Positions 10,501 to 35,321 of a stretch of 64,000 nucleotides of DNA are shown here, in pieces. The notes beneath the pieces are model-generated. The model made no database searches and was not told the DNA's origin. It worked only from the letters and a program-made list of their open reading frames with translations. The stretch covers positions 124,001-188,000 of the forward strand of contig JAGGNK010006615.1 of the NCBI GenBank assembly GCA_017590115.1, written 5' to 3'. This stretch comes from Montifringilla adamsi (Eukaryota > Chordata > Aves > Passeriformes > Passeridae). Position numbers and translations under genes: made by a program. Each line of letters opens with the position of its first letter. The stretch's first letter is position 1.

Positions 10501-11236
10501 CCCCTGGCCCATGCCAGACCCCTGTCACCCACCCACTGTATCACAATCTCAGTCACTAGCTGTGTTTCCACTGCTGAGACTTTGTTGAAAGTCCTCTTTA
10601 CCCCAACAAAGTTCCTGCCTTATCCCCTGTTTTGAGCCTCGCCTTCAGCTTGCTGCCCCTGCCACCCTGCAGGGTCCCCAGCACCCCAGGGAGCCACTGG
10701 AGCTGGCTACTGTGGCATGCATTCTGGTAGCCCTTGTCCTTCCAGCCCCAGCCCTCCAACAAACTGTGAGCTCCCTCCAGCAGCCTGGCCATTGTACTGC
10801 AAGCACACCGTGCACCACAGCTGCTGGGATCCCAAACTTAGGCTGATTTTCCCGGGTTTCCCTGGTCTCTGTGTAGTCCTGGGATGGAAGCTGGCTGCTG
10901 CTCTCTGTTTTTCCTGCTCTATTTCTTATGTAGCTTTTGTGGCCAGAGATGCTACAGGTGGAACATGAAAGGAAGAGTTCCTTTGCTCCTCCATTTCCCA
11001 GGAAAGAGCAATCACACACTGCCTCCTCTTACCGTGTCAGCCAGGCTGTACATCCTCAGTGCAGTGAGCTCCTCTCTCTAGACTTGTTCCTGGGAGTGGA
11101 AGTGAACTGGTGGTGAGAAGCAGAGAAACAGCATTGGCAGGGGAGCACAGGCTGGCAAGGAATATTCCAAGGAATACAGTCTTAATCCCAAAACCACCAA
11201 ATAAAACCTATGACCCAGGAGCTAAGAAACCAAGTG

Positions 11237-11605
11237 CTACCTGTGGAAACTTCCTCTCTCCTGCCTCTGGGCAGGGAAATTCCATGTGTCCCAGAGGGAC
11301 TGTGGCTTAGCAGAGGATATGCCCCAGCTCACCTGCTGGATTTCCTGCATTACCAGCCGTATGGAAGAGCGGAGGCGAGGGACGGCTCGTTGGCTGCTCT
11401 CTCCAGAGATAGGCTTTGCTCTACTTTTGTCTGGGGTCTGCTGGTTTTGGAAATTCTTGGTCCTCCTGAACCACTGCAGAGCATGTGTGCCACTGGAAGG
11501 CATGGAGGGGCAGGACTGCTTCTCTGAAGGGGTCTCCTTCTTGTCTGCTGGTGAACTCAGCGTGAGATTCTCCAGATTTTTGTAATTCAAGCTCTCAGTA
11601 CTTTT
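11237..11605 (-). CDS. Myosin exon z: C-terminal tail (3' limit uncertain)
   Basis: Starts [20 protein letters not shown] and continues with a Ser/Pro/Lys/Arg-rich tail to [15 protein letters not shown]. The open frame then runs on to a stop at 11237-11239. However, a good donor (CAGCAG|GTGAGC) sits at 11333/11332 in phase 0, so the true exon may end there with one further exon unseen. The tyrosine in LNYKNL could itself be a phosphosite. AATAAA (minus strand) occurs at 9183-9188 and 9098-9103 as possible polyadenylation signals. Confidence 0.75.
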   Translation of the reverse strand, partial: KSTESLNYKNLENLTLSSPADKKETPSEKQSCPSMPSSGTHALQWFRRTKNFQNQQTPDKSRAKPISGESSQRAVPRLRSSIRLVMQEIQQVSWGISSAKPQSLWDTWNFPAQRQERGSFHR

Positions 11606-14600
11606 CTGGAGAAAGGAGGAGTGGATTCAGCAGTGGTTTGCAGACCCTTCACACACACTGAACATACCCAGCTGTGTCCACTGCTGACAGTCAGGGCACA
11701 GCAGGGTGTTATCATCTGCCAGTGCCTCTCCCCCATCCCAGGACTCCCCAGCTAGCAGCATTTCCCAGCGCCTGCAGAAGCAGCCAAGCTGCTTGGCCAA
11801 AATGAGACACGCCTCAGCAGGAACACAAAAGAGATGCTGCTGCAGCATCTCTAACCACTCACTCAAGGCACAGTCCATGCCCCATCCTCTTTTCCCACTG
11901 AAGATGCCGGGTCCTCACCTGCCCACAGGGGACAGTCAGTATTTCCATGAAGGGCTGGATGCCCACGCTCTGGTGATAGCGCACCAGCTCGGTGAGCGAG
12001 GCGTGGGCCCGGTCCTCCCCCAGGATGACGTAGCGTGCGTTGGGCTGCGCCTGGATCATGTAGTGTCTGCAGCGCCCTTCGCCCCTGGGGGGAGGGATGG
12101 ACAGAAACAGTCAGGACATGGGGGCCTCAGCGTGTCAGAATCAGAACCTGGCTCCTGCTTCCCCCATCCGTGGTCTCCAGAAGCCGGCTGTGATCAGGAT
12201 CCTCAGTAACAAGTACCACACAGAGGCAGGAGATGTGCTGGGCACTAACGTGCTCATAGGTGCTGCAATCTCCTTCCAACCTGGTTTGCCCTCTCAGCCA
12301 CAGAGTACAGCCTAAGCAGGACCTCTATCCTTGGAGACGCAGCACCCCACCCACATAAGGTCTATTTTTTCAGTAAGAGACAGATTCTGCAGTATCCCAT
12401 CTGCTACTACAATCTCTGAGGCACCCACTACAGGAGAGGCTGAACATGATCCTCCTCACTGGACTCCTCTGTGGAGCAGGTAATCTCCTCCAGTCAGAAT
12501 TCAATATAGAATCACAGAATTCAAGAATTCTATGACTGTAGAATTCCAGGATCACAGAATTTCATGCAGTGCTCAGTTTCACAGAATCAGTTAGGATGGA
12601 AAAGCCTTCAAGATACTCAAGTTCAACCCTTAACACAGCACTGCCAAATCCACCATTAAACCATGTCCCCAAGTGCCACATCTACACATTTTTTTAAATA
12701 CCTCCAGGGATGATGACTGTACCAGTGCCCTGGGCAGCCTGTTCCTGTGCTTGACATCCCTTTCTGTGAAGACATTCCTCCTGACATTCAGCCTGAACCT
12801 ACCCTGTCACAGCTTGAGGCTGTGTCTTCTTGTCCTGTTGTCAGCTGCCTGGAAGAAAAGGCTGACCCCCACCAAGCTACAGGCTCCTGCCAGGAGCTGT
12901 AGAGAGCAATAATGTCTCCCCTGAGCCTCCTCTGCCCATTACCTACCGGTATGTCAAGATGTAGCCTGGTTGGCTCTGGCTGATCCGAACGAGGAAGCAA
13001 CCCAAAGGCTTGTCACTCAGCAAGTTTTCAGCTTCCCTGGAATCAGGAAAGAGTTTTTCAGCAGAGAGCCAGCAGCTGCCTTGCCACACTGCTGGGATTC
13101 ACAGCCTATCTCATGTGCTAGCCCAGTAGTGTCCCAGGGAGCCCAGCATCTGCCCCATGTGTCCCTGGCTACAGAACAGGTCTCCTGACTCAGGCTGGTG
13201 GTGCAGGAGGCACTAACAGGCTGAGGAAGCATCATACTCTCAGCCAAAGCCTCTCCAAGCAGGGCTGTTCCAAATCTGCTCCAGCAGTCTGACTGTGCCA
13301 TAGCAACAGCTGCCTTCCAGCCCCAAGCATGTCACACAGCATCACTGAGATGAAGAACCTGTGCATGTGTGCACTTCCTATGGCCCAGGGATGAAAAAGT
13401 CAGGATGCTGTGGGGTACTGGGTAAGCCCAGCACCTTGGAAAAACACCGTCTTGGATTACACCACTCTGGCTTCCTAAACTTCCTGCAGGAAGAAGGTCT
13501 TCCCCTTCTCTGCCCAAGAGACAAAGCTCTGCTTTGTGCTTGTCATGTGCCTTGCTCCAGGCTAAAGGTGACTGCAAATCACCAGTGCAATTTGAGGTTG
13601 CTCTGGCTGCTGCATTTCATGAAGCTGAGCTTACACTGCTGTGTGAAAACTTAAGTCTCTGCTTAAGCACCAGTGTCTTTGGTGCTTTGGTGCCACGTCC
13701 TTCATTGTGCAGTGCTCATGGCTAGTCTATACTTGAATTTAGACTGTTTTGTCTTCCAGACACTAATTCCTCTCCTACATTCTTTCATCTGTGGACAAAA
13801 GCATTACTACAGGTTAGGGCCTCAATAACTATCTTGAAAAAATTAAAAAGAAATACAGTTACCAGGGAGCTGTGAGCTACTGTAGTGTCCTTTACCAAGT
13901 TAATGTGTTGTGTAATGTCTCTGAGTAAACGTTCACACTGACAGCCTGAAAAAATCCAAGAATGTAGATCTAATAAGGCTGAAGGAGAATTGCAGTTTCA
14001 ACAGGAAAAAAAGTTAGAAACTGAGCAAGATGATGACGGTGTTCAGACAGCAGCAACATTGACAAAGAAATTCCACAAATTACAGGATATTGGCAGTTAA
14101 CAAGTGTGGAGCACCACAGATCAATTTGCACACAGGTGAGACTATAATGACATCCTGCTCCTGCTTGATCACTGGCATAATCAGCACTTCTCTGATTACA
14201 CCACTGCTTAACTAAGAAAGCACTGCTTGACTCAGCCAAGAGAGAGAAGTGTGAGGCAGACCTGGCAGAAAAACTTCAAGCATTTAAACAAAGTCTTGCA
14301 AACAGCTCCATAAGAAAGAAGGGCTTAGTGAATATCTTTCCCAGACTAAGTAGAAGCAAATGCCAGCTATGCTGCACCCTCCTTAGACAGACAGAGGTGT
14401 CAACAAAAACACTTCCTTTTCCTTATCAGAGGGTTTTGGTGGAGTTTTGCCATTGACTACTCACTAAAGCCCCTCTTAATACTACTTAAAATAAAAGTAA
14501 GCTGAATTCCATATTCTCCTGCTGTAAACTGGGGTCTTCTCCTGACCTATACTGAAATACAAAAAACAGTCATAATGAATCAACCCAAAAATTCAACTTC

Positions 14601-17600
14601 ATGTCTCTGCAAATGGTCCAGAACAGGGAAAGTGCATGTGTATATTTCCTGTTTTTACAAGCCTCCCATCCCTACACAAGATCTATATTTAAGGACACAG
14701 TGGACTTACATACTATGAGTTTCCATTGTCTTTCCATGGATCTACATTAAATTTCAGCATTTACAGCCTGTACCTAAAGCTTGGGAGTCCCTGACAGGGA
14801 CTCCCAAGCTTTCCCCTAAGGGTTTGATGCTCACAGATTAAAACAGAAAAGTTATGCTGGTCACTCCCATTCCATTCCACTTCCTTCCTGGGCAATCCAA
14901 CCTACACAGTCCTAAGGACACATGGATTTCTACCTGTGGTCACTGTGTCCAGAGTACTCACCTTCGACTGATCATCCCATGCAGCCAGCTTGGAAAGGCC
15001 CCATCATCCTGCATGACCTTCTGGGCCTGTGTATCTGTGAACCAGCGGAGAGTTGCTCCTCTCTTGAGTTTCCTCATTTTTGCTTCTTCCCCAGTCTGTT
15101 CCTCAGTTTCCAGAACAGGAGGAGGCACAGCAGGGTTCAAGAAGTTATCAAAAGGAGTGGACTGAAAGCAAGAAGAGAGGGAAAGTCAGTACAAAAGCAA
15201 AGTCAAAGGCAGGGGACATTTGAAGAGATCAGATTGGCAGGCGACGCCATTCCTGAGTCCCTTAAGAGAAGATGAGTCACCAACTACTAAAAGTTGCTTT
15301 CAGTTCCTCAAAGGTCCTGACCCTGCTTTTTATCTAACCACAGTAGGAGAGGACTCACACTTCTCATAACAAGAATGACAACACTATCTTGCGACTGCAT
15401 GCAGGAGAACATGTGCGTGCAGAAGGTGGATGGAGCAGGGAACCAGCACACCTGGCTCAGGGCCCCCCAGCAGAGCCAGTATTGCTACCTCTGTTAGTTT
15501 GCTGCGTGGCCGTGGCACTGGTGGCTGCTGTGACTGACCAGAAGGATGAGGACTAGACTGAAGGTGCTTCTTTCGTGGCATGGGGACTGGAAGGGAGTTT
15601 CTTTCTGAAACAAGAAGAAATAAGTAGGTGAACTCAAGTATCCAAGATCCATGAGATCTATTCTTCACAGGCCTAGGATTGGGATGGGCTCTGCTGCATG
15701 GATTATGTGGTAAAACAACAGCCTGGCCCTCCTTCCAGCACAGCCAGGCAAATTACCTTAATTATGCTGCTTCTGCTCCCCACAGACAATGCCACACTTG
15801 CAAAGAGCAGAAACATCATTGGCTCCCTGCCCACCACACTAATGGAATTCCCATCCCAGGGCAGGCCATCATGACTGGGAGCTTACAGCACTTCAAGGTG
15901 ATCACCAAACCAGTGGACAAGCTCTGGGTCAGTGTGAGTGGGAACAACTCACCCTGGGCCTCTGCTGCCAGTGCCAGCTGCTGGGTTTTTTCTCTCTCTG
16001 CCTCCTCCTGTAGGCGCTGTGCTTGAGCTCTCAGCTCACCCAACTGTTTTAGGAAACTCTTCTTGCATCTGAATCCCCTAAAAACTGTTCAGATAAAAGC
16101 TGTGGTTAGAAAATAAATGCTGTTCATGCCTTTGTAATTCTCTTGGGGAAGAACACTGGGTGATAGTCCTTCATTCAGTACAAAGCCCTCAACACCTGAA
16201 TCGTGTCAATAAAGAGCAATGGAAGCTCTATTGTGAGCAGGCAGCCAAAACCCTGTGAGAACTATCTTCCACTCTCTAAGCTGCCAGATCACAGATTTAT
16301 AGAAACCAAATTAGAGATCTAAGCTCTCATCTCTAATGCCAGAGCACTGAATACCTAAAAAAAAAGCCACACAGAAGGGCCTGTTAACCATCCATCTCTC
16401 TGTCCTTCTAGACACCACGAAGGAGACAGGATTTCCTTGATGCCAGCCCACAGGAAAACCTTTCCCATAAGCAGCCATCGCAGGACTCACAGGAGCATTA
16501 GACATTGTGTGATCCCACCTACTTTACCAGATATTAGGACACATGAAGTGAAAGCTGCACCCTCTCATTTCCCACTACCCACACATCCTCCCCACAGATG
16601 ACAAGAGCACACAGCTTGTGACTGTCTGATGTTTGTCACACTGTATGGTGCACAGTTGGAAGTTGCTCAGACGCTCCAGCAGTGCAACAACCCATACAGA
16701 AGAGAAGTGTAACAGAGGGGAGCTAAGCAGGGAGCTAAGCTGGCTAAGCAGCCTCCTCCTCCTCCTCCTGGCTGCACAGTCCTCATGTAGCCTGTGCAAA
16801 GGGAAGTACCAATTTGCCCGCAGCCACTCTGAAGAGACTGGCTGCTAGAGCAGATGCATTGTGGAAAGAAAAAAACCAAACCAGACCAAAATTCCACCCT
16901 ATTCTGCCTGTCTCTGAAAGCAGCAATGAGATCTGCTTCACTCATTTCCCTCTCCCCACTTCAACACAACTCACAAATAATCTTTACTCCAGAGGACAGT
17001 GAGCCAGACTTCAGGATATAACCAAATCATGTGCGTGCCCTGCTCAGCCCAGCTCTCCTGCACACATTTTCCCTTTCCAAGGCTGGTACTGAGGACTCTC
17101 CCTGATTCAGGATGAGCACTGGGAAAATGGGCATTTGCAATAAACACTTTGACTTCATAGGGCCTTGACACAGAGATGGCACTTGCCCTACTCTTCTGTC
17201 CTCTGCAAAGGTGGAGCAGGGACTGCAGAAAAGGTTTTCCTTGCCCTAGTCTGAGATCAGCTCTTGTCCCAGTGCTCACCTTTCTGTATGATAACTGCTG
17301 CTCTTTCCAGACGCTCCACATACTTTGCCAGCTGTTCCTGATGCCAATATTTAAAGAAAAGTCGAGACTTTCTGTGAAGTTGGAAGAGAACGATAAAGTG
17401 AGAAACACTAAACTTTTATCCACCATCCTTTGAAAAACCCATTCCTACAACCACAGAATTCTCCCTAAAGAGAATCAGGTGACAGCTTACACATGTAAAA
17501 TCTTAGGATTCCCATTCCCAACAGCAGTGATCCACACCTACCCACAAATCCAGCCTTTCAGCGCTGTACTTTGCAGTATCTGCAAGCAGCTGAAAGAGAC

Positions 17601-20600
17601 AAAAAAAGTTAAATAAGTAATTTTCCACCCAAAGCGAACAACAATTTTTTTAGTTACATAAAGGGGCATAAAATGCCTCAGTAATTCCCAATAGTTAGTA
17701 AACTGGCTGTCAGTCTGTAATGCACCTTGAGGTACAGCTAGGATCACATTTGGGAAGAACATCCGCAAAGGGATTCCCAGAGGCAGATTTACTTCAACTC
17801 CCTGGGAGGCAATTCTGTAGAGCCCATTTTATTCTCAGAAGTGTTTTTCCTCATTCTGTTTCCAAGCCCTTTGGAGGACACAAGTTGCAAGGTCAGCACA
17901 GCAAGACTTCTGGGAGAAAGTCTGTTTTCCAATTCCAGTTTCATTTTGCAGACTCCAGTGATAAAATTTGGGTCACTCAGAAAGATTCCCTGACACTTGG
18001 AACTGAAAGCAGCTCTAGCTGCAACACACACACAGCTTCCTCTCTCTCCTGCTAATCCAGGCTGTGAAATCATAGTGGCACCTTTTGCTAATATCTCACA
18101 CAGGAAAGCAGAAATGTTTTTCCTTCTATCTTGGCCAGCTTCCACAGTGCCACAATCCACATCCACAGGATTTTTTTTTCTGAAATGCATCCCATGATTT
18201 TTGTGTCTCCAAACACACCACACTGCCTGTTCACAATAATCTCTCCCCCATCTATGAGACTCTCTTGTGACCTCAGTCGGGTTTGAAATTCTTACTATTC
18301 AGAAGCATCAGGAAGTTCAAGGAAGCACTGTGAAGGCAGGAGGAGCTACTGCCAGAAGAGAATTGTTCCAGGAGGTCATTCAAACCCTTTTCTTAAATGA
18401 CTAAAAAAACCCCTCAGCTGGCTTCTTTACATGATTCATTCTCACTATCAATCACAGTTGACACTGGCAGGAAGGAGAGGCTGGGAAAGTGGAGAAGAGG
18501 AGGTGGGGAACTGCTGCCCTAGATTAGGAGGGAAAATGCTGGCAAGGTAAAACCTTGCTTCTCTGCTGAGCTGGAAGGATGTTTATGTGTATAACAGTCG
18601 GGTTCTAAAAGCGCTGATGGTATATTTTGCCTGCACAGACACAAAATTCTTGGTTTAGAAACATCTTCTCTAGCCTGGGAGACATTCAGTGCTGGCTGCT
18701 TGTTCAGCATTGTCTGTATCTTCTTCTCCCATGTGGCCATCAGGAAAAAGCCTGGAGAGGACCCTGACAGCAGTACTTGAGTGCCTGCTGTGCTGAGTTC
18801 AGTGGACACCCCTGACCACTACTGTCACTCCCAAATTAGATACAAGGGTCGGTTTTCATTTCACAGCACAACAACACTTTACAGCAACTGAATCGAATTG
18901 CTACATAACAATTCAAGACTTAATTCATCATGGTACCAAATGCTTTTTAAACATTAAATGTCCTTGCCTGGGAATTGTGTTCCCCATCACCACAAAATCC
19001 CATCCTCTTTTTTCTGTTCCTTTTACTTGGTTTCCTACGCTACTGTCACTAAAAGCCTCTGAAAAACAAACCAGACTGCAGACAACAAAGTTAATGTTCC
19101 TACCTTTCTTTTGTGGGGGGGACACCAGGTTTAACTAGAAGAATTCCATATCTGTGGAAAACAAACCAATACAAACACATAAAAGCCACATCCTTGATGG
19201 GCTGAGCTGATCCCTATCACCCTGACAGCAAACAACAACAAATCACTATCTTTCCCACTCAGCCTCCCACAGCAAATAACCCCATGACCTCCGACCACGT
19301 GAACTTTGAAGAAACTCTTTTATTCATTGCCCATATCTGGTTATCAGGGTAATTTCCCAAATAATGTCTAACAAGGAATATTCAGAGGTTTTAAAGACCT
19401 TTCAGCAAATTCCTCAAAGGAGGGTCTCCAGGAGAAACCATCTCTTCGGATACGGATTGTCTCCAGCAGCCCATTGTACCGCATCTGAAGCAGCACCACA
19501 AAAAAGGATCAGAGAAACAAAGAGAAACAGGTCATTATGACATTGGTTTTGCCCCTTTGCAGGCAGAAATTACTTCATTCAGCCCTAAACTTCTCCAGTT
19601 CAAAATGAAAAAGTTTTTTTCTGAAAACGTTCCCTTGGTTAAGGACTAAAATTACCTCATCCTGTAACTCTGATGATTAACCACTCTGCGTTAGAAGTTG
19701 GAAACCATAAAACACAATGACTGAAATAACTTCACCTTCCAGCCATGGGTACTGCTTTGCTTCTGTCCCTTAGAGATAGCTTCATATTTCCAAATCTGGA
19801 CATAAAAGTACTCTGAGGCATGGATGAACTTCCTCTTAATCCTATCCTTTCTTATACAGATTGAAGAGGATGCTGAGCTTTCTGAACTCTTCCAGTCATT
19901 TTCAGTATTCTTTAAGGCATCTATACCTCAGACCTGTCATAATATCCAACTAAAATCACATCAGTGCATTTCAGATCCTATCAAAGCAATCCCATCTTGG
20001 TTTCTATTCAGAGTTGCCCTGGCTGATGGGTGAGAACAGCCTCCTCTGGGAAGCAATTTTTCTGGAGTACTGTCTGTACCAGTCCCATCCAGGGGAGACA
20101 CAAAGATGAATCCTAGCGCCTGACAAGCAGATCTCATTGTGTTCACGAAAAAGAAATGAGAGAGATCTAAGACTGCAAAATCTGGACCTAGCAGTCTGTG
20201 TCACAAAAACAGCCAAGTACTCAGAATCTTTACACTTATATAAAGTGTGGCCACTCTTTCTCTTGCAAGGGAAGACTCAGCCGAGTTACCTTTCGCAGCC
20301 TTTTGGTGGAAACTGCCCTCCCACTGAGATGTGGCAGAAGGGCCTGTAAAGGACACTGTTTTTGCTCACCTGCAGCAGCACCACCTGGTTGTCCAGCACA
20401 CCTGGCTCCTTCTGGCTGTTGGGCTTTATGCAGCGCACAAAGTGTGGGTTGGCAGAATACATCCTCTCCATGAGCACTATCAGGGAATGCTGGCAAGGGC
20501 AGAGGAAGATCAACAGTCCGTCGAGCCAAAGCACTGCCACATGTGCAATATCCTGCAGCAAGAACTGTTTTCTCACCCCACAGCAACTTCCTGGGTTCTG

Positions 20601-23600: not shown

Positions 23601-26600
23601 TATCCACAAATGTCTTATCAGTTGCCTGCAAGAGAGCAGATTTCATAAGCTGCAACAGAGGCCTGATGAGGACACACAGAACCAAAACAAAATGCTGGAA
23701 GTATCCTTGGCTGTGCAATAGTCTTCTGCTGTACCTTCTCTCTGGCTCTTCTCAGGGATGCCAGTGTCACTAGACTGCCTCTGATCTGGATGTCCTAAGT
23801 CACACATGGGGACATCTCTGTTCATCCTGCGCTCCAGCCCAAGAGCTTTCTTTGTAGCCCAGATATACATTGATATATTAGCCCCCAGAATATTTTCTCT
23901 GCCTCCTCTCTCATGCATACCTGAGGGAATGCACTCTGCTCATCCAGAAGAGATAGCAGCCCAAGTGGCTTGGCCAGTAGCAGATTCTGCAGGAAAGAAG
24001 ATGCATGGCACATAGGTAAAGCAGTGAGGACATCCCCTCTCACCCTTACCACCCTTTGCAGAGGCTCCTCCCTGGTGCATCTCCTCCACATAGTAGGAAG
24101 AGCAAGACTTTTCTCTTGGCTGGATGGACCAATTATATTCTGTCAGTCCTCTCACTCACCAGAATAGGTTCATTATTGTTGAATGTGATGGTCTCCCAAG
24201 GCAGCCCTTCTTCCTTATAGGCAGCCTGCTCCAGCTGGAAAATGTGCTGAAATAAAGAAAAAAGAGGTTGAAGCACCGAGCAGACTTAGCTAAACAAACA
24301 CTGAGCATCTTCCTTCCTGCCCTGAACAAGAGGACAGGGGTGTGGCACTCTCAGCCTCAGCATGACAGGTCCAAGATGTAGCGGCTGCTCTCCATGGTGC
24401 TCTGTAACCCTGGCACTCACTGGTGCATAAAGCAGGAACACTTGTCAGAGTGTAAGTATCCCTGCTATTACGACTTTGATTACTGCTTGATCCTTCTACC
24501 TCTTCCTTTCCTGTTCCAGTGGCTCCCCTACCCCAGCAGGGAAGATTGCTGCTCTCTATCTTGCTTCACTATTCACTATTTCTGTCCTTACAGGAAATAG
24601 ATATGTTTTTCCCCAAGCTCTCCTGCATGTGCCAGGTAGAGCAGTGTTCTGTTTTCACTGCGACACAAGGTGAGGTCACCCCCAGCAGACTTACATGGTT
24701 GAAGAAATGCTGCAGCTGCTCATTGGCCAAGTTTATGCAAAGCTGTTCAAAACGATTCACTGCAAAGTTTTCAAACCCAAAAATATCCAAGATGCCTAAA
24801 AAAAGGGAAGAAGAGCAAATTGTGGAGTCTGCAGACCATCCTTGCAGATTACTGTGTACACCAACACACAACTAAATCTCTTATCACACAGCTCTTGTGG
24901 CACAGAGAAAATGCATTCAAGAGAGACACCAGTGGCAGCTCTTCCACAGCTTGAAGAGTTAGTTAAGAGAAGACCCACTCCAGCTTGGCTTCTCTGCTAA
25001 GCCAGAGTGCCCCAGAACAGCCTCACAGCTGCTTCAGATCAACTGACTGCTCAGAGCTGAGCAAAGCCCTACAGCCTTCATGCTGCTGACTCTTACCTCT
25101 AGCAGGATCACTGTTTTGACAAGGCATCCCAGCGCGCAAGCTCTGTGAAACCTCATGCTGTGCCTTGTCCTTTGCTGTGGCTGAGGGATGCACATTTGAG
25201 AACAGAACAGGAGCAAGGCAGGCAGAACTCACCTATCTCCCTCAGTTCCACATCAGGATCCACGTTCTCAGCCAGCAGCTCATTGATCTTGCGAACAATC
25301 CAGCCAAACACTCGGCCGTAGGCCACCTTTGCAATGGAGTCCCGAGCATCTGCACAGAGGGAACAACGGCAGCTCACTGACAGGCTTCACAGGAGAGCAG
25401 GGCACACGACACAAGCTGGCTCAATACATCCACCTCTAGCAACAAGGGCTATATGAAGCCACTTTAAAGACCAAATAAACATTGGACTGTCCCCATCCTT
25501 TGCAAGTGGGAGCTGTAAAAACAGCTCTTTAATTTCAAAATCTTCACAATCTTTCTACAAGATCAGCCACGCCATACCACAGTGTTTTTGAGTCACACGA
25601 CTTTTTAGAATATCCAGAGACTTGCTTTTCCCTCTGAAGATACACTAAGTATGGATCCCCTCACTGCTAAACCAAGGGAGAAGCTCCAAATTTTACTTGG
25701 AAAATTGGATGCTTCTCTTCCTCCTAGGCCATAGTTGCTAAGTGTTTAAATGCTGTAGTGAAGAAAAGGACACAATTGATGGAAAGCTTACTGACATTCT
25801 AAGAAGGAGATCAAATTAACATGACTTATGATTAGAGATGTATATTTTATTGTCTAGAGAAATTTGTAAAACAGAACTAGCTAATCCCATTTCATTTAAT
25901 TTTCTTCTTTCATTTATTTGAAGCAATAACCTCTCTTTTTAATTATCTTTTAAAGTACTACAATTTAAATGAACCTTTTGGCACAGATTATTTTAGATTA
26001 TTTTCTTGTTTTATTGAAAGGGAAAATAACACCTTGTGCTTGCTATTTTACTCTTTTCACTCCATTCCTGACACTATGGCATCTCGTCGTTCTCGTGGTT
26101 GTTTCTCCACCTATTACCTCGAGCTCTGTACACTGCCAGCACTCTGCAACAGGAGCCTTCCCCTGTTTTGCACAAATACCCAGAGTTTCTTTCGGGGCTG
26201 GACTGAGGCAGAAAGCAAAGCTAATTCCTTGGTTTCTCATTTAATCTCTGCAGTCTCCTGGAGACCAAACAAAAGCAGCGTTCATGGCCCTCCATGTCAG
26301 TAAGCGACTAAACAGATAAACACTGACATACTTCCCTCTGTGTGAGAGGAATGAAGGGGCACAGAAGGACATCTTTGTTCCCAACAAGCTGCACATGTGT
26401 GGGGATACCCTTCCATCAAAACCCAGACTTTCCAGCCAGCACATCTGCAATTCATTGTGCTTCCTACCTTCTGCCTGCTGCTGGGTGTGAAAGCGCTGGA
26501 TCTGCTCGCCTCGGGTCACTGACATTGTACAAATCAGGCATTTTAACAGCTCATCTTCCTGGACTCCAAACTGACCCTGGGAAACAGGAAAGAGACAAGG

Positions 26601-29600
26601 ACAGTCAGTTGTAAACCTTTACTCTGCTCGTGGGGATTGTGTCTGTCTGTGTGTAATGGGGCTGCGATTCAGGCTCAGGCCTTTGAGCCCCACGGTAAGG
26701 AAGGTGCTGCTGCTGGCACCAGAGTCAGATGTGGACTCTGATCCGCTCTACCTCCACAGCGACCAGCCTCACACACCCGCTCTCAAACACTTTTTGTTTT
26801 GCTCTTCCAGTGCTGCCGCCTTTCACCTTCTTTGGGAGCCATGCCAGTCCCTGCTGAGTGGTTTAATGACTTATTGAACAGCACCACACGAAGGTGACTG
26901 TGCAGGTGCTGAAGCATCTGAGCTATAGAGTCACAGGAACCCACACGAGAAGCAGGAAACAAAGCTAACTCAGACACATGGAACCCCTCGGTGATTTAAC
27001 AGGAATTCCCCTCCTGTGGGCAAGAAATGAGGAGCAGGCTTTCAGAAGTAAGATAAAAAGAAGTTGGCTGCTGAACAGACATAGGTGGTTGTTTCAGGTA
27101 TGGTGTAGGAGGGAAACAAGCAAAGAGATGGGAGTGAAACCGAAGAGCAAGGGTGCTGGAATTTCAAACAGGTCAAAAAAAGAAAAAGAAAATAAAAGAA
27201 ATAGAAAGGGGAGGAGTATGTTACATTTTTCTGTCCTGTGTTGTTAACAAAGCAGGATAACTTCTCCATCCCATATAACAAAAATGGAACGGCTCTGGGA
27301 AATATATACTTCTTAATTTAATGCAAAATAATAGAAAGCTTAATTCAAGATAACCAACAAAAAATGACAGCACTTAGGGTGGTATCCTTGGACAAAATCT
27401 GATGAAAACACAGAACTAGTGGGCATATATTGCACACCTGAATTTCTCCAAGGCATCACCACACTCACTAACATGAAACATTTAGTTTTAAAAAGGTTGT
27501 GTTTTATGAAGTCAGCAAGGTATATATGCTGGCTATGTAAGATACTGGTTCTAGACACACAAGAAACAGAAGCTGAGACACATCTCTCTGGGTATGAATA
27601 GCAGTGAACACAAGTGCTGTCATGGGATCAAACTGTACATTTCCAAAAAAAACCTTGTTCTTTAGAAAACTTCACATTCTGAGGCAGAAACATCCTCTGG
27701 CAGGAACAGCTCCTGCAGTCACACAGCCAGTGGGGAAGAGCATAATACCCATAAAGTTTCATCAAAATTTCTTGTGACTCACCGCTGCAGCCTTCAGCCA
27801 TCCCTGGGAGGCCTCACTGACCTTCACAGGCCCATTGCTCTCCTCAGGCTCAAAGGCCACATTGCCCAGAGACAACACACCAGCCAAGATAGCCTGCATG
27901 TCCACTTGCTCCTAAAACACAAAAGAAACGTGACAGGAAAACTCACCAGCACGTAGCATGTACAACACAGATGACCCAGAAGTTGGAGACGTTAAGGGAA
28001 GAGGCACAGGCAACCTGTGGGAAAAAGCTCTCCACAAAGTCTGGCAGACTCATGTGGTCTGAAAGTAACATGGAAAATCTAGAGAAAGAAATAGGTCTGA
28101 GCTTCAAGAGAGCAGCTAGAAAGAAACCCTGTCCCTGCAGGAAGCACAGATGGAAATGAAACAGCCCCAGGACTAACCTGTTCTTGGAAGCCCACCATGT
28201 CAAGGGCATTGCAAACCTCTTGGTATTTGTGTTTCCAGTGTTCAGCTACTTCCTGCGTACCAAATCGTCCACTTATGTACCTGAGAAAGTGCATATCCCA
28301 TAAAAACTGTCACACAACTGGCACCGTATCTCAGCCGTCCCCGATGGGAACAAAGCAGATCACCAGAAGGGGAAAGAAACTTTTCCAAGGTAGTGCAGCA
28401 GAGACCCCCTGACTTCCCAGCTTCCATGATGGTCTGTATCTCCTCACGTAGCTCCATTCAGATCCCACCCCAGCTTCCACTCACCCACAGATAAAACCCC
28501 AGGGCAGAGGAAAAAACTCCATTATGCTGTTTTCCCTTTCACCACCCATCACAAAGACTAAACCAGAGTCTGCCTTTGACGAACCTGTAGAGCAAAGGAT
28601 CCAATAGCCCATACATCTCTTTCTGCTCTGAAGACAGTCCAGCAAACATGTAGTAGAAGATGTGGAAATTCCTCTCCCCAGTATCTTGTTGTACCACCCG
28701 TGACTTCTCTAGCAGGTACTCACTCAGCTTTGCACCTTGCACTGCACATAAAAAAGTAACAGGGTGGGAAACTTCACTCTGAGGAACATGAAGCTGCCTG
28801 GGTTGTCCCACGTCTCTTCTTTGGTGCCAGGAGCACAGAATTGTCTAAATTAACTTTCTTGTGTGCAAGACCCTCCAAGCTGCCCAACACTCTGGAAATG
28901 GGCTTCTCCATGCTGCCTGTGGTCTTAGAGATTGCTGTTCACCTCTTTCAGCAGAAACAAAGGCCTCTGGCATCACAGAGTATTACTGACACTTACCCTG
29001 CACTCTCACCCCCATATTCTTGCTGTACTCCCACTCCGCCCAAACCCAGGCCTAATCCCACCCAGGACCTATCCAACAGTGGTTGCTGTGAGATTTTACT
29101 TAATTGCACACCCTTCCTATAGGGAGGCACATGCCAAAATTTTACCCTCCACAAGTTCTGGTGCTCAGTCCACTCCCTCCAGTTCCTATCCACTTCCCAG
29201 CCTAGTAATTGCTCTAGACTTTACCTGTATTTTTCTGGAAACGCAGCTGTATGTACTTCCCAAAGCGGCTGCTGTTGTCATTCATCACTGTCTGGGCATT
29301 GCCAAAAGCTTCAAGCAATGGATTCACCTAAAACAAGTAAAGAAGCAGAACAACCATTCTTCAGATTAAGCGATCCAATCTAATTTGCTTGGAAAAATTT
29401 ATCTTTAGCATTTTCTACTCAGAGTTCAGCTGGAAAAGGAACCACTCTATGAATATGGATGAGCACCTATTTTATCTCTGCCTGGATAAAGAAATTCAAA
29501 GAGGCAAGCATCACAAAGACTAAGCACCATGAGATTAACGATGATCAGTACAATTGAACTGATGGGATCCCAGTAAGATCATTGAGTCATTTGTTAGAAG

Positions 29601-32600
29601 ATAAGATTGGTACCACCTATTTCCACACAGTACCTGCTGTCACTGGATAATTTGAGTGCTATACAACAGCAATAAACAAAGTAACCATGGCACTCAGCTA
29701 ATGTAAGTATGACAGCTGAGCTACTGAAATTTGTAGACATAAGGACAGTGTATTATAAAGAAATTAACAGAACAATCAGACCAGCTTGCTAAGCTGGATG
29801 CAAAGGTGGTGAAATGAGAGTTTTTCTGTATTTGAGTAGAGAATGCCTGTCAACTGGAAGAGCAATGCCTCAGTGTAGATGCTGGGAAGCCTGTTGAACA
29901 AAGCTTTAAGGTACGATGGTAATCCCCCAAAGGACTAACTTTAGTCCTTGGATGTATCTACAGGAACCAAATAAGATGCATATTATTTCTTCACTGTCAC
30001 CTCAAGACTTTCCAAGAGCAGCTCATCTGGGCTGAACTGAGTTATTTCCAGTGAAGGAACCGCAAGCGAGCTCTCAGCACTCTGCTGAGCAAACACAGCT
30101 CTCCTGCCTGTGGAACCTGCTCAGGTCAGAAGCAGCCTGGCAGTGTGGCCCAAGCCAGCTCTAAGCAGAGACAGCAGGTGTATCAATGCCACATTCCCAG
30201 AACTCAGCACAGGCAGGCACCTTGGATCCACCATGGATGATACCACACCAAATTAACACACCATTCCCGGGCCCAAAGCACAGCACAGGGCATTGGGTTT
30301 ATGTGTCAATATATTGGTTGCAGGAGGAGCTAAAGCTGGTTTCTGTGAGGAGATGCCAGACACTTTCCCCATGTCCAACAGAGCCAATGCCAGCCAACAG
30401 AGCCATACAGACCTGCCACTGGCCAAGGCTGAGCCCACCACTGGCAGTGGCAGTGCCTCTGGGATAAAAACTGCTGCACACCCACAGAAGGGAGAGAGGA
30501 GTGAGAATGTGTGAGAGGAACAGCTTTGCAGACACAGGGTCAGTGAAGGAGGAGGGGCAGGAGCTGCTCCAGGAGCCAGAGCAGAGATTCCCCGGCAGCC
30601 TGGGGTGCAGCCCTTGGTGAGGCAGCTGTGCCCCTGCAGCCCCTGGAGGCCCAGGGGGGAGCAGAGATCTCCTGCAGCCCTGGAGGAGCCCACACCGAGC
30701 AGGTGGATGTGCCTGAAGGAGGCTGCGACCCCATGGGAAGCCTGAGCTGGAGCAGGCTCCTGGCAGGACCTGTGGCCTGTGGAGAGCAGAGCAGCCCACA
30801 CTGGAGCAGGCCCCTGGCAGGACCTGTGGCCTGTGGAGAGCAGCCCACGCTGGAGCAGGTTTGCTGACAGAACCTGTGACCTGAGGGGGGCCCACACTGA
30901 AGCACCCTGCTCCTGAAGGTCTGTACCCCATAGAGAGGACACAGGATGGAGCAGTCTGGTCGAAAGAAGTACCCCAGGGAGGGTACTGACACTGGAGCAG
31001 CCTGCTCCTGAAGGAGTGCATCACGTCAAGACACCCACGCTGGAACAATCTGCTCCTGAAGGACTGTCTCCTGTGGGAGGGACCGCATGCTGGAGGAGGG
31101 GAAGAGCATGAGGAAGAAAACAGTAGCACAGATAAACTGTGTATGATGAACTGACCTCAACACCCATCCCCTATCTGCCTGTGCTGCTGGAGGGAAAAAG
31201 GTAGAGAAAGTGGGAGTCAATTTGCATCTAGGGAGAAGGGAGGAGTTGGGAAAGTTGTTTCAAGGTTTGTTCTCCATTCTCATCATCCTACTCTGACATT
31301 AACTGGCAAGAAATTAAACTAATTTTCCCTAAGATGAGCCTGTTTTGTCTGTGAAGGTAGTTGCTGAGTGATCTCACAGTCCTTATCTTAACTCATGAGT
31401 TTTTGTTATGTTTTTCTACTCTTGTCCACTTAAGGAGGGGGAGTAACAGAGTGGCTTGGTGGGCACTGGTTGAAGTTAACCAGAGAAAGACCTTTACATT
31501 TCTACAAGAAATCTGAAAAGACAGACTTTAAAATGAAGCAGTCCAACAACTTGCTGCTGTTAATCTATCACATGGAAGGTTTAAAGTATGATTTGTTTAA
31601 AAAACCTCACAGCTCCCTGGGGAGAAATTCAAGTGGAAATATTTCAGACCAAAGAGTCAAGTATGTTTCAAAATGAACTGGCAAAGATATATGAAAAGAG
31701 TAAGGATGGCAGTTAGCCAGCTAGCAGGTATTTGCCTGACAGTATAAATAGCCAAGGATGGGTTACTAAATGGTGTGTGAATTCTTCATCCCTCTGTACC
31801 ATTAAATCAAGGTCTCATTTTTCTAATGAAAGTGGCATGTTCCACCTTGTTCTACCTCAAACAGGAAATTATCTAGAAAAATGCCACCAATCTCTTGTAA
31901 AAGAGAACACGATAAATGATTGCAGTGGTTTTCTCTAATATAAGAATCATTTCCAACAAACAGAATTACTGACCTACTAACCCTTCTAATTTGTGGCAGC
32001 TATCTCACCATTCTTGTCCACTATTTTCTTATGTGTAGCCCCCTGATTTCCAGTGGTGATTCACCAGCAGGCTTCCTAAGCCTAAAGCAAGTTGTCTTGC
32101 AGCAGTGCTGCTTCTGCTCCTTCAAGCACCATCCTGCAGTGACCTACCTGAAGTATCTGCTGCTCCAGCTGTGAGTTGCCTTTGCATAGGTTCATTATGT
32201 GCTGCAACAACAACTTTGTACTCTCTGTTTTTCCAGCACCACTCTCTCCACTGCCAAGAAAAAGCAAAATAAATTCTATCAACCAAAAGTATAGTTGTTC
32301 TGCCCCTTACAGCTCAAGTGCTCCATCACTTGAGAGTGCTCTGCAGGAGTTTCACAATTTTTTCAGCCAAATCACTTGTGTGAGTAAAAACTCACATGCC
32401 ACAGCTTTGCACATTAACCATGAGGTTTTTCGTCACGGAACTTTTCCCCCTCTGCAAGGGAGTACAGATATACCCCATGCTGTCACTTCTGGATGGAATG
32501 TATCAGACAGACCATTTGCTCTGCTTCAAAAGCCATCTGGTACCTCAATTCCCTTGCATATGCTGGAGCCAACAACTTCCTCTTTTCTCCAGAGAGATTT

Positions 32601-35067
32601 GCCCAATGTACATCACATCCACACCTGGATACTGATCATGAGATGCTGTGGCAGTCTCAGATCTCAAGTGTTTCACACATCCATGTGCCAGAAGCTGGGA
32701 ATGCAGGTGCAGAGCTGCCCACACTCCCACAGTGCCAGCAGTGCACGTCACTGTGCTGTCACACATCCACAGCACCTCCGCCTCCAAGTCAAACAACCAG
32801 CACTTGGAAAGTGCAGTTTCCCCTGTCCAGGGAGAGGGAATGTACAATCAGTGAGACAACATGTCCTTAACTGACAACATCACACCAGCTGAGAACCTCA
32901 GCATGTGCATGGAAAAAAAATAAATACAGGAAATGCTGGAGGCACACTTGAGGGCAGGTCCCCATTTCCTCTGAGCCGACCTTTGAGCATGTGGTGTGGC
33001 TTTACTGCTTCGTAGCTGCCAGTGGCTCTGAGCTTGGTATCAAGTATGTGTCATAGGTGGCTAAAAACTTCAAGTACTACAGCAGGTCCCTGATCTCAAG
33101 CACAGGTCAGACCAGCACCATCCAAATACATATAAACAAAATAGGACCATTTTGCCAGTTGAGAACAAGCCATCCAGTGCCCCTGCTCAGTATGTCAGGT
33201 TTATTTTTATTTTTCAGTAACTTCCCTCCTCCACCAGAAAAAAAAAATCCAACACCACTTCCACTTAGACCCTCCAACAAGCACAACACCTTCACAAGGC
33301 CCTGCAAGCACAGCAGGTGTGTAACTGGCCTGAGCTCTGAAGAAATGCTAAGTCATCTGCAGGTGACCCAAGTGCTGCACTGCATCACATGCAGGCTATG
33401 ACTAATGTCCTTTGGGACTGGGAAGGCAAGAGGAACCAGTAGAATTTGTGGCTGAGGACAATTTGGTAGCAATGAAAACTTATGATCTGGCAGCAGCTGC
33501 TTCATCAAACATCACCTCTGAAGAATGTGATCCAGACCTCCCAGACTCAGTTGGAGACACCAAAGAGACCACCAGGGACAGCAGATCCTGGTGTGTTTCT
33601 GTGGTGTTGTGGTGAACTGTGGTCTAACAGGAGTGACCTCATCTTCCCTGTTCACACCAACTGTGCTCATGTAGGAAAACTTGTTAATTAGTGTTTCACC
33701 ACAAGAGGAAAACCACAAACTTCCTGTGACAGTAACACAAAGACCAGGTAAAAGGACAGGAGTATATCAGACCCATCTCTGAACTACTGGCAGAAAACAA
33801 CCAGACCACTGACCACTTCACAATTCTCACAGGTTACACTTTCTTGACTTCCACCTCCCAAGACAAATACAATGACTGTTCTCTGTCCCGCAAAGCCCCA
33901 CCAACAGTGCCTCTTGTACCTGCTGACCCCACAGCCACCACTTCCCGAGAGCACTTCATGTAAAGCACAGGCACCAATGGCAAGAAGGCTACAGAAATGA
34001 GTGGGGCTCAAGTGCCCCTCAAAGTCAGCTCCCAGGCCCACCAAAACACTCAGCAGTGATTCAGCAGTTGACTTGCACGCCATGCAGACCGAAAGTACTG
34101 ATAAAATGATCAGAAGGCAAATACAAAGGAGCATTAAATCTAACAAGTTGGCAAGTAGAATTTTAAGTGAGATGATATTTAAACTGCTCTCTACAGCACC
34201 CGGCTGTAGAGAAGCAGCAGTTAATGTTTCAAGACTTTCTCCTTGCTGTTTAATGCTTTCTTTGGTGTTGGTGCTGTTTAAAGCTTTCTCTGCTAAATGA
34301 TGCTACCTGCTGTGCTGCAGAGTTCCAGTAGAACAAGAGTGACAAAACGGAGTAAAATGTTTGTGATACTGGTAGGCTCTTTGGTTAAAAGAATCACTTT
34401 CCCCCGACTTCTAGAGCACAGAACTGCCCATGACTTTAAGATCCTCCCTGACCAGATTCCCAAAGGTCTTAAGAGCAGAAAAATTGTTTTAATACTTCCT
34501 GCTCTTCAGTTACACTTGGGAAGCTCCAGTTTGTGAAAACTGGCTCCTTCCGTTATCATCCTTCCAACTTTTACTACAGCTTTCACCACGGAAGTTGTGT
34601 TGCCAGAGCAGAGCACTCAATGGCTTTTCCCAGGGCTGGATTCCAGTGGCTGGTTCCCCACCAGAAGTGAACCTGGCATCTTTACTGTTATAAAAACTGC
34701 TGGCCGAGCTGCTCCAGGAAAGCCAGTTTTGTCTGCCCACACGTTCTCACGACATGCCCGCTCATCCGTCTCGAAAGCGGTCGTGATGAAGGATGTGCTG
34801 CCAGCACAGACGGATTTTGACTCACCAACAGAACCGGAGAAGCGCTTCACCTGAACCTTGGGCAGGGAGATCCCAGCGAGAGCTCGGGGGCCCTCCCCGG
34901 CCCCCGCCGGCCCCGGGACCCCCGGCCGCCGCTCACCTGATGAGGATGCACTGGTTGCGGGGTCCGCTGCCCCCGCGGCCCAGCATGGCGTGGTAGGCGC
35001 GGCTGCCCACGGCGAAGATGTGGGGCGGCAGCGCGTCGTTCTGGAGGCGCCGGTACCGCTCGGAGAC
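11237..35067 (-). CDS. Unconventional myosin with C-terminal SH2 domain (spliced gene, N-terminal exons not found)
   Basis: About 26 minus-strand exons join in phase to give roughly 1003 residues. Visible in order: P-loop [10 protein letters not shown], switch [12 protein letters not shown], switch [10 protein letters not shown], the relay helix region, an actin-binding segment ending [15 protein letters not shown], a converter ending GKSRLFFKY, one IQ motif ([16 protein letters not shown]), a short charged helix, a Pro/Arg-rich linker, a full SH2 domain with FLVRIS, and a basic tail. The motor should hydrolyse ATP and move on actin. The TEDS-rule position appears to be Glu (in RGEQI), so heavy-chain phosphorylation there is probably not needed. 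The lever arm is short (one IQ). The SH2 should bind phosphotyrosine proteins and so select cargo or location. The first recognised exon starts at the YxxR..PPHIF region, so about 100 or more N-terminal motor residues are missing. Class is uncertain: it is not MYO1, 5, 6, 7, 10 or 15 by tail. Evidence for a functional gene: every splice phase agrees and no frame is broken. Confidence 0.93.
11919..12084 (-). CDS. Myosin exon y: second half of SH2 domain
   Basis: Encodes [13 protein letters not shown], then [20 protein letters not shown] and [20 protein letters not shown] supplies the beta-D4 His of SH2 domains, and [10 protein letters not shown] is the alpha-B helix. The LT.PCGQ ending resembles the SH2D2A/HSH2D/SH2D7 group, from memory. 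Confidence 0.95.
12570..12936 (-). mobile_element. CR1 LINE 3' fragment next to the SH2 exon
   Basis: Reads from tcacagaatcagttaggatg through ttcctcctgacattcagcc to tctcccctgagcctcctct. Its right edge is about ten bases from the donor of the myosin SH2 exon at 12947. Confidence 0.88.
12947..13036 (-). CDS. Myosin exon x: SH2 core with phosphotyrosine-binding Arg
   Basis: Encodes [20 protein letters not shown] and ends [15 protein letters not shown] matches the FLVRES motif and keeps the invariant Arg beta-B5 that binds phosphotyrosine. The donor is CCG|GTAGGT in effect (CG|GTAGGT). CR1 sequence begins only about ten bases past it. Confidence 0.95.
14776..14812. repeat. Perfect 37-base palindrome in a myosin intron
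   Basis: Two 18-base arms (starting aaagcttgggagtccctg) are exact reverse complements separated by one base. It lies in the intron that divides the SH2 domain. Confidence 0.97.
14962..15161 (-). CDS. Myosin exon w: linker and start of SH2 domain
   Basis: Begins [17 protein letters not shown], then a charged helix ([20 protein letters not shown]), then the SH2 start [19 protein letters not shown] across the junction is the SH2 entry consensus (beta-A/alpha-A). Confidence 0.93.
15489..15604 (-). CDS. Myosin exon v: proline/arginine-rich linker
   Basis: Encodes [12 protein letters not shown] and [16 protein letters not shown]. It is a low-complexity, basic, proline-rich linker between the helix and the SH2 domain, and could serve as an SH3-domain ligand. 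Both splice sites are strong and phases agree. Confidence 0.88.
15953..16084 (-). CDS. Myosin exon u: IQ motif and charged helix
   Basis: Continues the IQ motif as [15 protein letters not shown], giving IQxxxRGxxxR across the junction; this is a calmodulin or light-chain site. It then runs [20 protein letters not shown], a charged helical segment likely to be a short coiled coil or single alpha-helix. The acceptor is GAACAG, six bases upstream of another AG at TTTTTAG that would put a stop in frame. Confidence 0.92.
17280..17371 (-). CDS. Myosin exon t: end of converter and start of lever arm
   Basis: Encodes [20 protein letters not shown] and ends [11 protein letters not shown]. The GK(S/T)..F(F/L)(K/R) motif marks the end of the motor; VIIQK opens the IQ motif. 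Confidence 0.95.
17542..17589 (-). CDS. Myosin exon s: converter
   Basis: A 48-base exon encoding [16 protein letters not shown] and two bases of Gly. It fits the C..IL......W..GK converter consensus once acceptor CTTTCAG is used. Confidence 0.9.
19104..19151 (-). CDS. Myosin exon r: converter
   Basis: A 48-base exon encoding [16 protein letters not shown], the R(Y)xxL segment after the F.EF..RY motif. Acceptor TTCCACAG, donor AAAG|GTAGGA; phases 2 and 2 match the neighbours. Confidence 0.9.
19399..19484 (-). CDS. Myosin exon q: SH helix/converter start
   Basis: Encodes [20 protein letters not shown] and ends PSFEEFAE. The LRY.G.LE.IRIRR.G...R..F..F consensus is exact for a myosin head. It ends in phase 2. 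Confidence 0.96.
20370..20489 (-). CDS. Myosin exon p: FVRCIKPN segment
   Basis: Encodes [20 protein letters not shown] then [29 protein letters not shown] is one of the strongest myosin signatures. It is 40 codons, with donor CAG|GTGAGC. Confidence 0.97.
20779..20844 (-). CDS. Myosin exon o: VGAQFR segment
   Basis: Encodes [22 protein letters not shown], with the V..QFR motif that leads into the strut and SH helices. It is 22 codons, phase 0 at both ends. Confidence 0.92.
21155..21201 (-). CDS. Myosin exon n: loop 2 region
   Basis: A 47-base exon encoding [16 protein letters not shown]. It corresponds to the loop 2 area, which contacts actin and varies between classes. Here it is short and only mildly basic. 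Acceptor CTTCCAG, donor AAG|GTATTG. Confidence 0.85.
21261..21296. repeat. 18-base direct repeat, two copies
   Basis: The unit aacctcacttaatgcaca occurs twice back to back in a myosin intron. It looks like a recent local duplication. Confidence 0.95.
21640..21760 (-). mobile_element. Degraded CR1 3' end
   Basis: Contains ataatcacagaacgaggtta and ctggaggtcatctggaccaa, a diverged CR1 3' end. Confidence 0.6.
22466..22577 (-). CDS. Myosin exon m: GFLEKNRDT segment, GC donor
   Basis: Encodes [20 protein letters not shown] and ends LLSVLFK. The only donor giving the correct phase is AAAG|GCAAGT, a GC-AG intron with an otherwise perfect donor match. The next exon completes the split Ala codon. Confidence 0.92.
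23512..23625 (-). CDS. Myosin exon l: lower 50K
   Basis: Encodes [20 protein letters not shown] and ends [10 protein letters not shown]. The TD..F...L and F.I.HYAG.V motifs are diagnostic of myosin. The donor AAA|GTATGT leaves phase 0. Confidence 0.96.
23921..23986 (-). CDS. Myosin exon k: [10 protein letters not shown] segment
   Basis: Encodes [22 protein letters not shown] (22 codons). The G.L..LDE...FP motif is universal in myosin heads; here the usual Cys/Glu-rich run is shortened. The donor is CAG|GTATGC. Confidence 0.93.
24160..24246 (-). CDS. Myosin exon j: relay helix
   Basis: Encodes [20 protein letters not shown] and ends NNNEPIL, matching the relay-helix consensus HxFxLEQEEY. It is 29 codons, phase 0 at both ends. 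Confidence 0.95.
24695..24795 (-). CDS. Myosin exon i: switch II
   Basis: Encodes [20 protein letters not shown] and [20 protein letters not shown] is the switch II element that closes on the gamma-phosphate; the [11 protein letters not shown] motif follows as expected. The donor is CAT|GTAAGT. Confidence 0.97.
25233..25349 (-). CDS. Myosin exon h: relay region lead-in
   Basis: Encodes [19 protein letters not shown] and [20 protein letters not shown]. This is the D.LAK..Y..LF.WIV..IN stretch found in all myosin heads just before switch II. Confidence 0.96.
26468..26576 (-). CDS. Myosin exon g: actin-contacting loop region (TEDS)
   Basis: Encodes [20 protein letters not shown] then [16 protein letters not shown]. 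Counting 16 residues back from the DSIAK of the next exon, the TEDS-rule site falls on Glu of GEQI. An acidic residue there usually means no heavy-chain phosphorylation is required for activity. Confidence 0.93.
27783..27911 (-). CDS. Myosin exon f: upper 50[13 protein letters not shown] segment
   Basis: Encodes [20 protein letters not shown], the conserved helix with the I.A.ILHLGN-type signature. It is 43 codons, phase 0 at both ends, with donor GCG|GTGAGT. Confidence 0.95.
28178..28280 (-). CDS. Myosin exon e: upper 50K
   Basis: Encodes [20 protein letters not shown] and ends [10 protein letters not shown], the usual F..L..AL..VGF region of myosin heads. The donor is CAG|GTTAGT. Confidence 0.93.
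28585..28741 (-). CDS. Myosin exon d: upper 50K, LLEKSRVV segment
   Basis: Encodes [17 protein letters not shown] and [14 protein letters not shown], both hallmarks of myosin heads after switch I. It starts in phase 1 and ends in phase 2 (TAC AG), matching both neighbours. Confidence 0.96.
29225..29327 (-). CDS. Myosin exon c: switch I
   Basis: Encodes [20 protein letters not shown] followed by [14 protein letters not shown]. It contains the switch I consensus NxxSSRFGK. The acceptor is GTTTTAG and the donor ACAG|GTAAAG; it ends in phase 1. Confidence 0.96.
30290..31490. mobile_element. LTR-like repeat resembling songbird ERVL-type elements, with internal tandem units
   Basis: A roughly 1.2 kb block in the intron between myosin exons b and c. 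Its centre (30740-31060) holds diverged tandem units around ggagcagg, ctgtggcctgtggagag and cccacactgga. The right part has ggagggggagtaacagagtg and ggcttggtgggcactggtt, which I associate from memory with songbird ERVL-like LTRs. No retroviral coding region is visible. The family assignment needs a repeat library. Confidence 0.55.
32148..32250 (-). CDS. Myosin exon b: P-loop
   Basis: Encodes [20 protein letters not shown], the Walker A nucleotide-binding loop of a myosin, ending LEQQILQ. Its first base completes the Ser codon split from the previous exon. The donor is CAG|GTAGGT. Confidence 0.96.
34937..35067 (-). CDS. Myosin exon a: motor, residues before the P-loop
   Basis: Frame reads [11 protein letters not shown] then [19 protein letters not shown] and ends NQCILI. 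This is the standard segment between the N-terminal subdomain and the P-loop. The acceptor is CCCCGCAG and the donor is AG|GTGAGC. It starts in phase 0 and ends with two bases of a Ser codon. It is the most 5' exon I can identify and lies in a GC-rich island. Confidence 0.9.
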
Positions 35068-35253
35068 CTGCGGGGAAGCGGCGACGGAGAGGGGTGAGCG
35101 GCCGGGGGGCGGCGGGGCGAGGTGGGGGCGCGGCGCTCACCTCTCTCACCGCCCGCCGGGGCGGGGCCGCCGTTTGAACGCGGGGCGGCGGCGGGACCGG
35201 CAGGTAACGGGCGGCGTGGGCGGCGTGGGCGGCGTGGGGCCGGAGCCGGAGCC

Positions 35254-35321
35254 AGAACTAGAACTAGAACTAGAACTAGAACTAGAACTAGAACTAGAAC
35301 TAGAACTAGAACTAGAACTAG
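35254..35321. repeat. (AGAACT)n hexanucleotide microsatellite
   Basis: About eleven near-perfect tandem copies of agaact, open in several frames and so producing spurious Glu-Leu, Arg-Thr, Leu-Val and Ser repeats. It lies about 190 bases upstream of the first recognised myosin exon. Confidence 0.97.

Follow-up and report, generated by a model that had tools for sequence, protein, structure and literature searches.

A class XXVIII myosin, with an SH2 domain in its tail, is almost certainly encoded in the genome of Montifringilla adamsi, as judged from the identity and architecture of the predicted protein. Its gene is read from the minus strand of the 64,000-nucleotide stretch of DNA that was analysed (the window; all coordinates refer to it), and 27 exons join in frame from 35067 to 11056. 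The order of the model is myosin motor, one IQ motif, linker, SH2 domain and C-terminal tail, and a motor-IQ-SH2 series in frame is far beyond chance. The class is already known and little studied. The part worth following is the probable link between its tail and the adaptor HSH2D.

Gene structure

The exons were located by reading three frames and aligning the songbird orthologue P0001 (1052 aa); splice sites were ranked by reading frame and orthologue match and then joined (Table 1). The joined model has 2967 nt, encoding 988 aa followed by TGA, and is free of internal stops. In tblastn the ordered exons match residues 65-1052 of P0001. GT-AG borders are found at 25 of the 26 introns and GC-AG at the remaining one, which follows exon 13 (AAG/GCAAGT). 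The top-scoring donor of this intron is a GT 15 nt upstream; the GC donor was preferred because conserved residues otherwise drop out. At intron 14 the donor at 21155, which retains residues present in P0001, was preferred to the top-scoring one at 21167, 12 nt upstream.

The original prediction had read P-loop, switch I, switch II, IQ motif and a complete SH2 domain in phase within a span of 11919 to 35067. The series is borne out in the right order on the minus strand, and the start at 35067 stands, as it is where the earliest exon located begins, but the gene extends to 11056: position 11919 is only the end of exon 25, and the exons at 11605-11333 and 11106-11056 had been missed.

Table 1. 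Exons of the SH2-tailed myosin gene of M. adamsi in window coordinates
Feature	Coordinates	Strand	Content	Basis
Exon 1 of model (second or later in real gene)	34937..35067	-	Motor; acceptor ccgcag, donor gtgagc	tblastn, splice scoring
Exon 2	32148..32250	-	P-loop GESGAGKT	Splice scoring, joined model
Exon 3	29225..29327	-	Switch I	Splice scoring, joined model
Exon 4	28585..28741	-	Motor	Splice scoring, joined model
Exon 5	28178..28280	-	Motor	Splice scoring, joined model
Exon 6	27783..27911	-	Motor	Splice scoring, joined model
Exon 7	26468..26576	-	Motor, including TEDS-rule position (Glu)	Splice scoring, joined model
Exon 8	25233..25349	-	Motor	Splice scoring, joined model
Exon 9	24695..24795	-	Switch II DIFGFE	Splice scoring, joined model
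Exon 10	24160..24246	-	Motor	tblastn, splice scoring, joined model
Exon 11	23921..23986	-	Motor	Splice scoring, joined model
Exon 12	23512..23625	-	Motor	Splice scoring, joined model
Exon 13	22466..22577	-	Motor	GC donor chosen over top-scoring GT
Exon 14	21155..21201	-	Motor, loop 2 region	Donor 21155 chosen over top-scoring 21167
Exon 15	20779..20844	-	Motor, loop 2 region	Splice scoring, joined model
Exon 16	20370..20489	-	Motor	Splice scoring, joined model
Exon 17	19399..19484	-	Motor, converter region	Splice scoring, joined model
Exon 18	19104..19151	-	Converter region	Splice scoring, joined model
Exon 19	17542..17589	-	Converter region	Splice scoring, joined model
Exon 20	17280..17371	-	Motor end and neck start	Splice scoring, joined model
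Exon 21	15953..16084	-	IQ motif and helical stretch	Splice scoring, Pfam
Exon 22	15489..15604	-	Linker; two PxxxPR motifs (model residues 696 and 719)	
Exon 23	14962..15161	-	TPFDN box, LRWFxxTQ helix, SH2 start (WLHGMISRR)	
Exon 24	12947..13036	-	SH2, including FLVR arginine	Joined model
Exon 25	11919..12084	-	Remainder of SH2	Joined model
Exon 26	11333..11605	-	C-terminal tail, conserved SIRLxMxEIQQ motif	tblastn, joined model
Exon 27	11056..11106	-	Final codons and TGA stop	tblastn, joined model

The window has other features besides this gene. A RhoGEF-like gene on the plus strand at 37703-48611 resembles, we presume, ARHGEF39; its frames 37703-38023 and 40197-40607 match Pfam RhoGEF below the cut-off (E 0.045 and 0.00013, respectively), and its frame 48144-48611 is PH-like in appearance. 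On the minus strand, 52125-51327 holds a gene for ribosomal protein L17, split into two or more pieces (Pfam Ribosomal_L17, E 3.8e-8 and 2.1e-11), which we take to be MRPL17. Collagen-like Gly-X-Y runs on the minus strand at 60318-60220 and 62526-62233 are perhaps collagen exons; neither run has a Pfam collagen match. Self-comparison gave nine dispersed repeat intervals, presumably CR1-like (3635-3856, 7104-7389, 12705-12862, 30747-30904, 36530-36626, 38596-38762, 42637-42819, 43543-43700 and 58550-58835). No Rfam match at gathering cut-offs was obtained in the 64-kb window.

Domains and conserved residues

In a Pfam search of the joined protein, the check that had been proposed with the prediction, motor, IQ motif and SH2 domain each score above the cut-off. 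Myosin_head (PF00063, 631.8 bits) covers model residues 3-623 and profile positions 54-679 of 679, IQ (PF00612, 22.4 bits against a cut-off of 20.3) a single stretch at residues 638-657, and SH2 (PF00017, 61.9 bits) residues 788-863 with profile positions 1-77 of 77. Comparison with 120 relatives reveals that the P-loop is invariant in the 114 having it, switch II is kept in all 120, and switch I differs by one substitution in a single row. The TEDS position, which we take to lie 16 residues before the aspartate of RDSIAK according to a counting rule, is Glu in 120/120. The FLVR arginine for phosphotyrosine in the SH2 domain is kept in all 116 relatives having the column. The C-terminal motif encoded by exon 26 is also conserved among relatives.

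The AlphaFold model of the orthologue P0001 (mean pLDDT 60.9, pTM 0.45) is confident mainly in the SH2 domain, and its motor is poorly modelled. It predicts a helix at 689-753 for the neck, disorder across the linker (752-817) and a short helix in the C-terminal part. Foldseek with this model returned myosin heads throughout the best 50 matches listed.

Class assignment and species range

The excerpted text of Odronitz and Kollmar 2007 (PMC2375034) describes class XXVIII as having an IQ motif, a short coiled coil and an SH2 domain, reports it in Gallus gallus, Xenopus tropicalis, some fishes and Nematostella, and gives it as lost in most Metazoa and in Acanthopterygii. The M. adamsi gene has the same motor, IQ motif and SH2 tail, with no difference in kind seen in that text; it differs as an orthologue from another bird, whose first exon was not found. 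The class XXVIII that the prediction had tentatively named is thus supported, by this description together with the identity to relatives, and orthology rests on that 2007 classification and on 64-94% identity to SH2-tailed relatives. The 18 compared include the songbird proteins P0001 of Ammospiza (93.6% over 988 residues; named 'myosin-IIIb-like', with 64 extra N-terminal residues of its own), P0006 (93.8%), P0002 (91.9%) and P0004 (90.1%), and also alligator (74.3%), coelacanth (65.5%) and shark (64.0%). The suspicion that the class was catalogued and hardly studied proved right: it was named in 2007, and the literature matches listed are classification papers, with no functional study of a class XXVIII myosin among them. 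The excerpts of two later papers report a class-28 myosin in Capsaspora (2017, PMC5583752) and, in choanoflagellates and filastereans, proteins called 'myosin III-like' that carry an SH2 tail (Sebe-Pedros et al. 2014, PMC3942036).

The 148 relatives listed consist of the best 120 of 7958 matches and 28 new ones among the best 120 of a second search, which used the coelacanth motor as query and whose best 120 were class XXVIII again. The named species among them are birds, turtles, alligator, salamanders, caecilian, frogs, coelacanth, numerous ray-finned fishes as far as pike, salmonids and smelt, and sharks, rays and chimaera. A search for the same motor-SH2 order in other vertebrates had been suggested, and the order is present from birds through sharks. 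Among the named species of the 148 there is no mammal, lizard, snake or spiny-rayed fish, and the class appears to be absent from these groups. For mammals this is supported by the consideration that a full-length orthologue would outrank fishes in the best 120 of 7958, and the species range agrees with the losses given in the excerpts of PMC2375034. The tail search further yielded P0180 of Batillaria, a partial gastropod protein with both domains, which adds a mollusc to the species named for SH2-tailed myosins.

Alternative readings of the gene

Class III myosins have an N-terminal kinase domain. This domain is absent among the precomputed domains of the best 120 relatives (PF00063, PF00017 and PF00612 only), and the tail of the M. 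adamsi protein is an SH2 tail, which the excerpts of PMC2375034 place in a class of its own with a bootstrap of 750/1000. A class III identity, close to MYO3A or MYO3B, is therefore very improbable, even though most orthologues share the name myosin-IIIb-like in the protein database and the excerpts of PMC3942036 group SH2-tailed holozoan forms as 'myosin III-like'. It is still harder to credit that a myosin gene and an adjoining gene for an independent SH2 adaptor have been read as one. The SH2 domain closely resembles those of the stand-alone adaptors HSH2D and SH2D2A, and automatic annotation labels some tail fragments SH2D7 or HSH2D; but PF00063 and PF00017 occur in one protein in 143 of the 148 listed relatives by precomputed domains (P0012, P0048, P0055, P0069 and P0254 have no SH2 entry), and in M. 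adamsi the exon phases are all compatible, the SH2 exons being in frame with the motor exons. Nine relatives, found only in the source 'lgn', presumably assembled sequencing reads, have both domains on contigs of 3174-4707 bases, a length that fits a spliced mRNA and is too short for a locus with the introns of M. adamsi. The relatives thereby contradict the two-gene outcome that had been named as a refutation, and support motor and SH2 domain as a single gene.

The model lacks the start codon and everything that corresponds to the ~64 N-terminal residues of P0001, among them the start of the motor. For these residues tblastn with the N-termini of P0001 and P0011 gave no convincing match in the window: the best listed matches, with E 0.014 and 0.051, are on the plus strand. 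A profile built from 59 N-termini and run against the 2663 stop-free frames that the window contains did not find them (best E 0.17, plus strand), nor did they turn up in three 10-kb flanks, 30 kb of contig in all (best E 0.48). The window has no runs of N. This absence is what a decaying or 5'-truncated copy would leave, in which the first exon is truly gone and no working motor is made. Such a copy is nevertheless improbable, given 988 open codons, splice sites of good quality and an identity to orthologues that reaches 94%. G+C is 74-86% at the first exon located and immediately upstream of it, and further out, at 35209-35322, lie a GC-rich array of 9-bp units and a tandem array with perfect repeats of 6 bp (AGAACT); GC-rich exons of this sort are often missing from bird assemblies. 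When the relatives were filtered for a long N-terminus, 59 of 120 passed; among three songbird entries inspected, two likewise begin within the motor. We think that the first exon is absent through assembly loss. The proposal of intact frames in a living gene is supported for 988 codons, which are without stop or frameshift, and not for the first exon, which was not found.

Linker motifs and candidate SH3 partners

The two motifs in the proline-rich linker encoded by exon 22 are of the PVPxPR type and are kept in 107/110 and 109/112 relatives with the linker stretch. By pattern they are candidate CIN85-type SH3 ligands. According to the excerpts of PMC3805583, PxxxPR is preferred by CIN85 SH3 domains, and those of PMC11560026 report for a viral protein that deleting one PxxxPR motif, of the PVPxPR type, lowered SH3KBP1/CIN85 binding, while no single PxxxPR deletion abolished it. 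CIN85/CD2AP is a guess with several competitors, because proline-arginine motifs are ligands of many SH3 domains, yet the conserved pair gives a concrete, testable partner lead. PVPxPR is absent in four gastropod rows, of which P0162 has PxxxPR after the SH2 domain. We also note that model residues 689-734 match the arterivirus Nsp2 family of Pfam below threshold (19.5 bits, cut-off 20.8), which probably reflects common proline-arginine motifs and not kinship.

Relation of the tail to HSH2D

In the tail search the best 120 of 133 matches are class XXVIII fragments first, then HSH2D (synonym ALX), SH2D2A and SH2D4A, and the closest solved SH2 structure is that of HSH2D (2cs0, E 2.8e-28). The HSH2D and SH2D2A adaptors share the WFxxTQ stretch and the SH2 domain with the class XXVIII tail, and HSH2D tails have further boxes after the SH2 domain in common with part of the class XXVIII tails; the adaptors are without a motor, whereas the SH2 exons of M. 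adamsi join motor exons in frame. The excerpts of a review (PMC9783222) list HSH2D as a pY-x-N binder, grouped with SH2D2A and SH2D7.

An RLYP-type box beyond the SH2 domain is found in 77/148 class XXVIII rows, 18/31 of the HSH2D group, 0/18 SH2D2A and 0/22 SH2D4A rows. The motif EYxxPPPxxPG occurs in 28/31 of the HSH2D group and in one of 148 class XXVIII rows, namely P0259, a protein of 1251 residues that is the first branch within vertebrate-type class XXVIII in a tree of SH2 domains. The 31 rows of the HSH2D group were picked by hand: P0155, P0159, P0160, P0171, P0194 and P0207 do not bear the name HSH2D, and P0187, which bears it and is without the C-terminal motif, was left out. The portion of HSH2D tails that follows the SH2 domain was made into a profile from 25 of 27 chosen tails and searched against 124 targets, of which 51 score better than the best of 1000 shuffles (0.024). 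P0259 matches with E 1.1e-7 and a large composition-bias term (20.3 bits), and carp-family tails match with E about 5e-6 and little bias; SH2D2A tails and the gastropod tails (P0168, E 0.37; P0162, E 19) do not score better than the shuffle best. Homology between HSH2D and the vertebrate class XXVIII tail probably extends past the SH2 domain.

The SH2 tree comprises 58 rows and 125 columns, hand-chosen from 268 proteins, with six chosen rows missed by the cutting pattern. One group (98/93) unites the vertebrate class XXVIII rows with two fragments, and the branching order of HSH2D, SH2D2A and gastropod tails is weakly supported. The AU test did not reject a single clade of all myosin tails (p 0.084), a single clade of HSH2D (p 0.24), or vertebrate tails with the adaptors and gastropods outside (p 0.24). 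P0192 (jgi source, 422 residues) has the same SH2 type and groups with gastropod tails (100/97).

Tentatively, and with somewhat more doubt than belief, we suggest that HSH2D may be the orphan tail of an SH2-myosin, left by an early-vertebrate duplication in which one copy lost its motor, and that at activated receptors the PVPxPR pair may link the myosin that kept its motor to CIN85/CD2AP. The direction from myosin to adaptor is drawn from SH2-tailed myosins in unicellular holozoans and Nematostella, as given in the excerpts cited above, and in a mollusc, whereas the named HSH2D rows among the best 120 of 133 are vertebrate. HSH2D rows branch first when the tree is rooted on SH2D4A, which counts against this direction, and the composition bias of P0259 and the result with gastropod tails weaken the orphan-tail reading.

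Proposed mechanism and implications

The head would act as an actin motor which, with Glu at the TEDS site, would need no head phosphorylation at this site. Docking of the SH2 domain on an activated receptor or scaffold is likely; the sites bound there may be of the pY-x-N kind listed for HSH2D. Recruitment of CIN85/CD2AP-type SH3 adaptors by the PxxxPR motifs is conceivable but falls short of an even chance, and it is rather doubtful that the motor holds or pulls tyrosine-phosphorylated receptor complexes along cortical actin. The steering by tyrosine-kinase signals that was originally proposed, with its cargo and biology, is something we infer. Tyrosine kinases could then switch the cargo choice of a motor conserved from sharks to birds. 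If the HSH2D link is right, it would give the origin of an SH2 adaptor family, and mammals, seemingly without an SH2-myosin, would still carry its tail as HSH2D.
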